The notes below the pieces were generated by a model, which did no database searches, had not been told where the DNA came from, and saw only the letters and a program-made list of their open reading frames with translations. From positions 1-64,000 of the forward strand of contig DATMML010000085.1 in the NCBI GenBank assembly GCA_035570235.1: a stretch of 64,000 bases of DNA. Reading direction: 5' to 3'. Each line of letters begins with the position of its first letter. Position 1 is the stretch's first letter. The DNA is from Vicinamibacteria bacterium. GTDB lineage: Bacteria > Acidobacteriota > Vicinamibacteria > Fen-336. Positions 36,957-39,042 of the stretch are shown here, piece by piece. A program made the translations under genes and the position numbers.

Positions 36957-37517
36957 ATGAAGGACCTTGGACAACTTGCGTTTCTACTGATGCTCCTGGT
37001 TCCCGTCCCGACGTGGGCGGGGAAGGCGCCGAAGCTCGCACCCCCGGATCTCCCCAGCGAGCACGTCTGTCCTTCCAAGGCCTTCTCCTTCCGCACGCCC
37101 GCCGATTGGAAGGTTGAATCCGGGGGCTCGAGCCCGGAGATCGTACAGGCCCAGGGAGACAGCGTGGTTGTGCGCTTCCTGCATCGCGGGGAGGAGGCGG
37201 GCTTCGACGGCCTCCACGTCGACTGCATGGCGGAGCGCTTGTCGGGCACCCCCCTGGACTCCGAGCCGCAGGTGGAATACGAGTACGACTTCGTGAGCGG
37301 GCGTATCCGTGGTCGGCGCGCCCTCGACTCCGCATTCCGTGTGATCTACGATTCCCCCATCCTCGGTTCCCGCGAGTGGCGGCAGCGGAACATCACGCTC
37401 GTTGGAGAGGGCGAGTCCCTCTGCGTGATCGCGTTTTGCCCGATGAAGTTGTGGAAGAAATCGCCGGCGACGCGGGCCCTCTTGGACGGCGTCCTGGCCA
37501 GCATCACCCTGCGCTAA
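36957..37517 (+). CDS. Secreted protein of unknown function
   Basis: The 186-residue product has a clear signal peptide (QLAFLLMLLVPVPTWAG) and then a mostly beta-type domain containing three cysteines outside the signal, PADWKVESGG and a C-terminal ATRALLDGVLASI helix. The FRTPADWKV-type opening resembles periplasmic PsbP/DcrB-like domains, but similarity is too thin to name. It starts an apparent operon: its TAA overlaps the ATG of the MinD-like gene by one base. Confidence 0.6.
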   Translation: MKDLGQLAFLLMLLVPVPTWAGKAPKLAPPDLPSEHVCPSKAFSFRTPADWKVESGGSSPEIVQAQGDSVVVRFLHRGEEAGFDGLHVDCMAERLSGTPLDSEPQVEYEYDFVSGRIRGRRALDSAFRVIYDSPILGSREWRQRNITLVGEGESLCVIAFCPMKLWKKSPATRALLDGVLASITLR

Positions 37518-38476
37518 TGGCCCTGAGTGTCACGCCGGTCATCCCCGCCGCCGCCCCCCGCACGAGGCGCCAGATCTGGTCGATGGGCGGGGGCAAGGGC
37601 GGCATCGGCAAGTCCCTCCTCACCGCCTCCTTGGGCTGGCAGCTGGCCCGCATGGGCAAGCGCGTGGTCCTGGTGGACGCGGACCTGGGGGGCGCCAACC
37701 TCCACACCTGCCTGGGCCTCTCCGGCCCGGAGCGGACGCTCGGGGACTTCATCCAGCGTCGGGCGGAGCGGATCGAGGATGTGCTGACGGAGACGGGGGT
37801 GCCCGGCCTGCGCCTCATCAGCGGAGCCTCCGACTTCCTGGGGGCCGCCAACATCAAGTACCAGCAGAAGGTGAGGGTCCTGAACCGCATCCGGTCCCTG
37901 GACGTGGACCTGGTGCTGCTGGACTTGGGGGCCGGGACCTCCTTCAACATCGTCGATTTCTTCCTGATCTCCGACCTCTCGCTCCTGATGGTGGTCCCCG
38001 AGCCCACCTCCATCGAGAACGGCTACCGCTTCATAAAGAGCGCCCTCTACCGCCGGCTCCGCGCCGCCGCCCCCCGGGAAGGGGTCCGCCTCATCATCGA
38101 GGCCGCGCTCGACCCCAAGAACGCGCGCGGGATAAGGACGCCCCTGGACCTCCTGGCCACGGTGGAGAAGGAGGACCCGGAGGCGGTGGGAGTGCTGAAG
38201 CGGGAGATGGCCGCCTTCCATCCCCGGTTCGTCGTGAACCAGGTCCGCGACAACGCCGACATCACCATCGGCCACCAGCTCGTCTCCGCCTGCGCCCGGC
38301 ACCTGGGGGTGCGGGCCACCTACGCCGGGTACGTGCACTACGACGACACCGTCTGGCAGAGCGTGCGGCGGCGCCGCCTCTTCATGGTGGACGCGCCTGG
38401 GGCGCGGGCGGCGGAAGAGGTGCGGCAGCTGGCCCGCGGGCTCCTTCAGGGCGAGAGCCTCGCCCTGCCCTGGTAG
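37517..38476 (+). CDS. MinD/FlhG-like P-loop ATPase
   Basis: The 319-residue product has the deviant Walker A motif of the MinD/ParA family (KGGIGKS, residues 27-33), VLVDADLGGANLHTCLG as switch I, and VLLDLGAGTSFNIVDF as Walker B. The long C-terminal half resembles FlhG/YlxH-type orphan MinDs more than septum-site MinD. No flagellar or minC/minE genes are near. The next gene, two bases after the stop, encodes a J-like/HTH protein, so the ATPase probably positions or regulates something with that partner. The start overlaps the preceding stop by one base. Confidence 0.8.
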   Translation: MALSVTPVIPAAAPRTRRQIWSMGGGKGGIGKSLLTASLGWQLARMGKRVVLVDADLGGANLHTCLGLSGPERTLGDFIQRRAERIEDVLTETGVPGLRLISGASDFLGAANIKYQQKVRVLNRIRSLDVDLVLLDLGAGTSFNIVDFFLISDLSLLMVVPEPTSIENGYRFIKSALYRRLRAAAPREGVRLIIEAALDPKNARGIRTPLDLLATVEKEDPEAVGVLKREMAAFHPRFVVNQVRDNADITIGHQLVSACARHLGVRATYAGYVHYDDTVWQSVRRRRLFMVDAPGARAAEEVRQLARGLLQGESLALPW

Positions 38477-38478
38477 CC

Positions 38479-39042
38479 GTGGAAGGCGAGACGCACTACG
38501 ACGTGCTGGGGCTCGAGCCCCGCGCCTCCCGGGAGCAGGTCGAGCGGGCCTACCGCTTCTGCCTGGAGCTCTACGGAGACGGTTCGCTGGCCACGTACTC
38601 ACTGCTGGAGGTGGGGGAGGTCGAGGCCGCGCGCACGCGCGTGCTCGAGGCCTACGAGGTCCTGGCCGATCCCATCCGCCGGCGGGAGTACGACCTGACC
38701 CGGGGATTGGCGGAGCCGGGCTCGCCCCTTCTTCCCTTCCCCCCTTCCCCCCTGGCGGGCGAGCCGGCGGTTCGGGACACGGCCGTCCCCGAGCTGTCCG
38801 ACGTCGTGACCGGCGCCGACCTCCGGCGGGTGCGCGAGGCGCGGGGGGTCAGCCTGCGCGAGATCGCGGTCGCGAGCAAGATCGGGGTTCGCTACCTGGA
38901 GTACATCGAGCAGGACCGCTACCCGTTCCTGCCCGCCCCCGTCTATCTGCGCGGGTTCCTGCAGGAGTATGCCCGTCAGGTCGGCTTGGATCCCCGCCGC
39001 ACCGCCGACGCCTATATGGCCCGGATCCCCCAGCGGGTCTGA
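38479..39042 (+). CDS. J-like domain plus RodZ-type helix-turn-helix protein
   Basis: The 187-residue product has a J-like N-terminus (HYDVLGLEPRASREQVERAYR, VLEAYEVLADPIRRREYD) lacking the catalytic HPD tripeptide: the loop reads LYGDGSLATYS. A Pro-rich linker follows. The C-terminal helix-turn-helix is like the cytoplasmic part of RodZ (LRRVREARGVSLREIAVASKIGVRYLEYIEQDRYPFLPAPVYLRGFLQEYAR). There is no membrane helix. The start is a GTG two bases after the MinD-like stop. Without HPD it should not stimulate Hsp70; I infer a scaffold or regulator working with the ATPase, possibly in cell shape or polarity. Confidence 0.72.
   Translation: MEGETHYDVLGLEPRASREQVERAYRFCLELYGDGSLATYSLLEVGEVEAARTRVLEAYEVLADPIRRREYDLTRGLAEPGSPLLPFPPSPLAGEPAVRDTAVPELSDVVTGADLRRVREARGVSLREIAVASKIGVRYLEYIEQDRYPFLPAPVYLRGFLQEYARQVGLDPRRTADAYMARIPQRV

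Follow-up and report, generated by a model that had tools for sequence, protein, structure and literature searches.

A recurrent gene pair encoding a MinD/FlhG-fold ATPase and a soluble J-like/RodZ-type helix–turn–helix protein in Acidobacteriota and other bacterial phyla

In the genome of a Vicinamibacteria bacterium, a gene for an ATPase with the MinD/FlhG fold is followed almost without a gap by a gene for a cytosolic protein combining a J-like domain with a RodZ-type helix–turn–helix (HTH) domain, and this arrangement recurs across several bacterial phyla, in places as natural fusions of the two proteins. It appears to be a cellular control system of bacteria that has so far been missed. 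With moderate confidence, we propose that it forms a two-protein, ATP-switched module, in which the J-like domain of the second protein (hereafter, the adaptor) would dock on the ATPase while its RodZ-like HTH would bind a target. Literature searches, with most subscription papers outside their reach, found no publication on this pair.

The window, that is, the whole analysed stretch of 64,000 nucleotides, belongs to a genome of 5.72 Mb in 138 contigs with a completeness of 99.57% (G000), and, among named genomes, Acidobacteria/Vicinamibacteria MAGs contain the closest relatives of the ATPase. Three genes of the forward strand, encoding an apparently secreted protein, the ATPase and the adaptor, overlap or nearly abut (Table 1). 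The stop codon of the first overlaps the ATG of the ATPase gene by one base, and the TAG stop of the latter (38474–38476) is separated by two bases (38477–38478) from the GTG start of the adaptor gene. The flanks of the trio carry XdhC-like and deoC-like genes, named by eye. In all 12 genomes of the same family that have the pair, the gene of the secreted protein lies directly upstream of the ATPase gene and the adaptor gene immediately follows the latter. The secreted protein does not precede the second copy in genome G012 (L060), and no match to it was found in the fetched loci of other phyla.

Table 1. Coordinates of the three genes and of the main features of the encoded proteins in the window.
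Feature	Position	Strand	Basis and remarks
Secreted protein, 186 aa	36957..37517	+	N-terminus signal-peptide-like (by eye); no Pfam/NCBIfam match
MinD/FlhG-fold P-loop ATPase, 319 aa	37517..38476	+	Pfam, structure matches, model
Deviant Walker A GGGKGGIGKS; signature Lys27, catalytic Lys32	37586..37615	+	Both Lys in 80/80 aligned relatives
Helix 163–184 after PEPTS motif	38003..38068	+	E167, N168, Y170, R171, F172 and R179 invariant (alignment, model)
Helical insert of ~51 residues (residues ~185–235), absent from FlhG	38069..38221	+	Motif spacing, profile alignment gap
Cytosolic adaptor with J-like and HTH_25 domains, 187 aa; starts with GTG	38479..39042	+	Pfam, model, hydropathy
J-like domain without HPD (residues 5–75)	38491..38703	+	DnaJ match 63/63; J-domain fold match, Z 11.5
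SLATYSL in place of the HPD loop	38584..38604	+	A38 and Y40 invariant, 63/63
RodZ-type HTH_25 (residues 112–180)	38812..39018	+	Pfam, model; aromatic Y156 and F160 at the MreB-contact positions of RodZ

The ATPase matches the Pfam families CbiA (4.2e-11), ParA (1.4e-10) and AAA_31 (2.1e-8), all over their cut-offs, while in NCBIfam it falls among MinD/ParA proteins but under the cut-offs for MinD itself. It carries the deviant-Walker signature KGGxGK[ST] of the ParA/MinD group together with the signature lysine, and the switch aspartates, like both Walker A lysines, are invariant in all 80 ATPases encoded by separate genes. The nearest solved structures are those of FleN/FlhG (5.5e-25 by sequence), and FleN is also the top fold match of the predicted structure (pLDDT 87; Z 32.6, rmsd 1.7, 244 aligned residues). 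The coordinates, the Pfam matches and the FleN structure agree with the preliminary description of a MinD/FlhG-like ATPase two bases ahead of the next gene. Presumably, the protein dimerises in an ATP-dependent manner.

Two regions distinguish this ATPase from FlhG. The helix behind the PEPTS motif, the position of which we take to be equivalent to that of the MinE- and MinC-binding helix of MinD, is followed by an insert that is folded into helices in the model and corresponds to a gap in the profile alignment to FlhG. The distance from PEP to NQVR is 76–80 residues in all 80 pair ATPases versus 28 in three FlhG proteins; a cruder pattern count in the set used for the tree, comprising 58 pair rows, gave a spacing of 79–81 in 43 of the 48 measurable ones. 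At the other end of the chain, the 80 pair ATPases extend 24–40 residues beyond position 289, and the profile alignment to FlhG stops at FlhG position 276 of 294. The amphipathic, membrane-targeting C-terminal tail of FlhG (..FFW..) was not seen in the 14 C-termini of pair ATPases that were inspected.

The adaptor matches the Pfam families DnaJ (PF00226, 1.6e-8) and HTH_25 (PF13413, 4e-21), both over the cut-off, and both matches were obtained for each of the 63 adaptors that were picked from the loci described below by length and completeness and aligned. An AlphaFold2 model (pLDDT 89, pTM 0.50) has a J fold at residues 1–78 and the fold of the RodZ cytoplasmic domain at residues 108–187; the linker between the two domains varies from 39 to 172 residues among the 63 proteins. 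The HPD motif occurs in none of these adaptors, nor was it flagged in any of the 77 loci with an adaptor gene. In the adaptor of G000, the highest mean hydropathy over 19 residues is 0.74, which means that the protein has no membrane helix, and the corresponding value for the most hydrophobic of the 63 adaptors is 1.47. The Pfam matches, the model and the hydropathy thus bear out the earlier view of the partner as a protein that combines a J-like fold without HPD and a RodZ-type HTH and lacks a membrane helix.

The top fold match of the HTH domain is RodZ from the MreB–RodZ complex (2wus, Z 12.2). Two aromatic residues of RodZ are critical for MreB binding according to the accessible part of PMC4047632, namely F60 and Y64 in Escherichia coli and Y66 and F70 in CT009. 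Their equivalents in the adaptor were assigned via the alignment to CT009 and the four-residue spacing; position 156 is aromatic in all 63 adaptors and position 160 in 62 of them. These aromatics may have a structural role shared by every HTH_25 domain. The adaptor is not the only HTH_25-like protein of the genome to which the window belongs (G000:C73 is another).

To assess how widely the pair is distributed, a collection of named genomes was scanned with the ATPase alignment and the best-scoring 80 loci were kept, which biases the set towards the paired subfamily. These loci span Acidobacteriota, Nitrospirota, Myxococcota, Bdellovibrionota, desulfobacteria and SAR324, and the adaptor gene lies downstream on the same strand in 77 of them. 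Among the exceptions, L082 ends at a contig end, while L110 and L136 are without an adaptor gene; in three of the 77 loci (L091, L123 and L140) the J part alone was found, since the frame reaches the end of the locus. The 80 loci were fetched independently, and for 77 of them to share this gene order is well beyond chance. The preliminary description, which had suggested surveying the pair across Acidobacteriota, called the ATPase an orphan; this term proved to be wrong, because the ATPase subfamily has a partner of its own, and the finding is more general than was thought, the pair being retained across several phyla.

Of the 40 nearest genomes, 21 contain the ATPase at E <= 1e-15. Sampling of individual phyla revealed two clearly separate score groups: as counted from the matches listed, 58 of 78 Bdellovibrionota genomes scored above 125 bits, 54 of 77 Myxococcota genomes above 165 bits and 33 of 118 Desulfobacterota genomes above 175 bits, while the lower group, at 115 bits or less, covers little beyond positions 11–180 of the profile and includes FlhG. 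The J/HTH partner was confirmed in 13 genomes of Desulfobacterota, and it is present in one single-contig genome of 1.09 Mb (G600). Some relatives belong to genera of which strains are in culture, namely Myxococcus, Corallococcus and Anaeromyxobacter. Two further sets of chosen loci, many of them divergent, contained the adaptor gene in 21 of 40 and 2 of 15 cases, with only 152 bases left downstream in one of the 15 (L313). The wider ATPase group is therefore not uniformly paired, some members carrying other tails or standing alone.

Several observations concern this wider group. No J/HTH gene was found next to the related ATPases of loci L227–L230, L272–L274, L280–L283 and L293–L302, some of which adjoin HD-type or polysaccharide-export-like genes (by eye). 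The related ATPase of L219 (G307) seems, also by eye, to end in an FHA domain, so that a different partner module is attached to an ATPase of this kind. Several related ATPases are encoded in the 9.7-Mb SAR324 genome G331 (L085, L228–L230), the sole carrier of MinC among the 50 pair genomes analysed. A plasmid-borne partition system was considered and rejected: a tblastn search of a plasmid collection with the adaptor returned five weak matches to the HTH only, none covering 80% of the query.

Strong evidence that both proteins work together comes from fusions. Across all loci read, 24 proteins contain the ATPase, the J-like domain and the HTH in one polypeptide, always in this order, two of these loci (L321 and L325) having been scored as fused by hand after the automatic label "J only". 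Many of the sampled Acidobacteriota carry such a single protein; a Myxococcota fusion (L279) is also among the 24, as is a fusion from the family to which the window belongs (L052). In genome G004 of this family, ATPase and partner form one frame of 485 aa. Moreover, loci L150–L153 (Acidobacteriota), L223 and L224 encode an ATPase with an intact Walker A and a C-terminal J-like domain, with no HTH in the frame. In both kinds of fused protein, the ATPase has the J-like domain as its direct neighbour.

Of the 24 fused proteins, 22 (L207–L213, L215, L216, L218, L220, L052, L319–L322 and L325–L330) have R, T or V in place of the catalytic lysine of Walker A, versus none of 79 separate ATPases, where one automatically flagged case was a misread intact motif. 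On the tree, the branches with good support require the fused-and-replaced label to have changed three times or more, yet they provide only two independent fusion/lysine pairs (median p 0.5), so that no significance can be claimed for the association. Our reading is that the nucleotide cycle mainly controls association with the adaptor and is relaxed once both are one chain, and the loss of the lysine in fusions fits a cycle with this job. Alternatively, the fused proteins could be no more than paralogues that have diverged, and genomes G181 and G197 do also carry an ATPase–J protein with the lysine intact.

The neighbours of the pair are housekeeping genes and vary between phyla, so that the gene context points to no single process; none of them is flagellar. 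In all 27 Bdellovibrionota loci with sufficient room, RluD comes next after the pair, followed by PgeF in 26, and RluD follows in 16 of 19 Myxococcota; in the same set of loci, it is not next to the pair in Acidobacteriota (0/2), Nitrospirota (0/4) and desulfobacteria (0/3). For example, the gene order in the Bdellovibrio-like genome G406 is CdsA, RseP, a TsaD/TsaB-family gene, ATPase, J/HTH, RluD and PgeF (-like genes). The distance matrices of ATPase and adaptor correlate at 0.89 and those of ATPase and neighbouring RluD at 0.92, so that this measure of co-evolution does not set the pair apart from RluD. In Myxococcota loci L096, L097, L105, L125, L134, L139 and L141, the genes immediately before the pair include an HNH-endonuclease-like one (present in a total of 12 loci) and a SelA-like one (in a total of 13), both named by eye. 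MreB is encoded in 47 of the 50 pair genomes and was not found in the other three, which may be incomplete.

We propose the following mechanism. The ATPase, representing a separate subfamily of the MinD/FlhG fold, would dimerise on ATP; instead of a C-terminal membrane tail it has a conserved helical insert located just after the region equivalent to the partner-binding helix of MinD. The HPD-less J-like domain of the adaptor would dock on the ATPase, and the variable linker would connect it to the RodZ-type HTH, which would bind the target. Binding and hydrolysis of ATP would make and break the docking and in this way govern the place or time of HTH action. The output would be spatial, and a role in positioning or cell shape, as put forward in the preliminary description, is a candidate function. 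As target, the MreB cytoskeleton or another protein of envelope growth seems most probable, DNA being less likely; the RodZ fold, the two retained contact aromatics and the frequency of MreB in the pair genomes are only suggestive of MreB itself.

Other explanations place the ATPase or the HTH in different processes. It is possible, although we regard it as unlikely, that the pair is a transcriptional switch, in which the HTH protein regulates genes by binding DNA and the ATPase acts on it as an antiactivator, in the manner of FleN on FleQ, with no cargo being positioned. Among solved structures, those of FleN are indeed closest to the ATPase, complexes with FleQ included, and the HTH matches the Xre-type family HTH_31 over the cut-off and resembles DNA-bound HigA (Z 8.3). 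However, this domain is of the RodZ type first, by both profile and fold, the adaptor is no AAA+ regulator, and the ATPase departs from FlhG in its insert and C-terminus. An improbable variant on DNA is a ParAB-like system, with the ATPase tracking on the nucleoid and the HTH protein marking a DNA site: the operon logic is the same, an ATPase and then an HTH protein, and neither protein has a membrane anchor, but the ATPase is MinD/FlhG-like rather than ParA-like in fold and sequence, and the HTH belongs to the type with which RodZ binds MreB. Recruitment of DnaK by the J domain to the ATPase or to a client of the HTH would suit the J fold and the DnaJ matches of all 63 adaptors; we consider it very improbable, since an HPD is missing from every one of them and a different invariant motif (A38, Y40) stands in its place. 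A role as an Hsp70 co-chaperone was rejected on the lack of HPD.

Least credible of all is the control of flagellar number or placement by the pair as a second FlhG. In its favour, the ATPase has the FlhG fold and, as reported in the part of PMC7226244 that was accessible, the DnaJ protein SflA represses flagellation in Vibrio lacking FlhF and FlhG. However, flagellin, found in 29 of the 50 pair genomes, is absent from G000 and from 21 of the 50. Furthermore, members with flagella have an FlhG-like protein in addition to the pair ATPase, both kinds being encoded in genomes such as G327, G328, G333 and G334, and FlhG groups apart on the trees: the seven FlhG-like rows make up one side of a branch with a support of 97, one of them adjoining an SRP54-type (FlhF-like) gene and the others being called FlhG from sequence alone, while in a second tree three FlhG proteins grouped with a support of 100. 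The identity of the ATPase as a flagellar FlhG was rejected because of the insert, the missing tail, the position on the tree and the lack of flagellin in G000. Neither of the outcomes named in the preliminary description as evidence against a distinct system, a pair that is not conserved or an ATPase clustering with FlhG beside flagellar genes, was observed, and its assertion that the pair is unlike flagellar FlhG or MinCDE holds in view of the insert, the tail, the tree and the pair's own J/HTH partner.

According to the sections available of two papers (PMC10241942, PMC9178275), many MinD/ParA ATPases are called orphans with no partner known. Gene order and natural fusions now provide one whole subfamily of the MinD/ParA type with a dedicated partner, in a case of switch–adaptor fusion that is accompanied by loss of the catalytic lysine, and the J domain appears to have been taken out of Hsp70 service for a different purpose. 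Should the RodZ-like half bind MreB, the module would connect the two families of bacterial organisers in a new way. A bolder and rather doubtful proposal would see in it an ancient cell-organisation system of Acidobacteriota, Nitrospirota and "deltaproteobacteria", in which a non-membrane MinD-like ATPase controls a soluble RodZ-like MreB adaptor via a J-like docking module, and in the fused descendants of which the nucleotide cycle became dispensable, the catalytic lysine being lost several times.

The proposed ATPase–adaptor module resembles several known systems in part. With MinD of MinCDE, the pair ATPase shares the fold (Z about 28) and the ATPase motifs, but it has no membrane tail and its partner is the J/HTH protein. 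MinC (MinC_C) is absent from G000 and from 49 of the 50 pair genomes, which says little, since MinC is rare in these phyla anyway (9 of 118 Desulfobacterota genomes). None of these nine genomes is among the 13 Desulfobacterota in which the pair was seen; an overlap of zero would often arise by chance alone, and the idea that the pair and MinC exclude each other was dropped. FlhG/FleN and the pair ATPase have in common the fold, the deviant Walker A, and the PEPTS and NQVR motifs; the latter differs in its 51-residue insert, the lack of a C-terminal membrane tail, a different operon, its own partner and its occurrence without flagella. SflA of Vibrio, as described in the accessible text of PMC7226244, is likewise a J-domain protein and is functionally linked to FlhF/FlhG; unlike the adaptor, it is a membrane protein with a periplasmic TPR-like domain encoded outside the flagellar gene cluster, and no HTH is named for it there.

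Like ParAB, McdAB and PomXYZ, the pair consists of an ATPase and a dedicated, unrelated partner, but it is set apart by the J-like and RodZ-like HTH domains of this partner and by the natural ATPase–partner fusions. Partners in ParA/MinD systems are said to activate their ATPases via a positively charged N-terminal peptide (PMC10241942 and PMC7993993, in the excerpts available). Such a peptide was not seen in the adaptor, which begins almost directly with the J-like domain, so that activation of the ATPase, if any, probably works differently. The J fold is common to the adaptor and to Hsp40 co-chaperones, from which it differs in the missing HPD. Finally, the adaptor resembles RodZ in the HTH_25 domain, its fold and the aromatics at the MreB-contact positions; a classical RodZ was rejected for lack of a membrane helix, and, compared with RodZ, the adaptor also has no periplasmic domain, a J-like domain and an ATPase partner being added instead.
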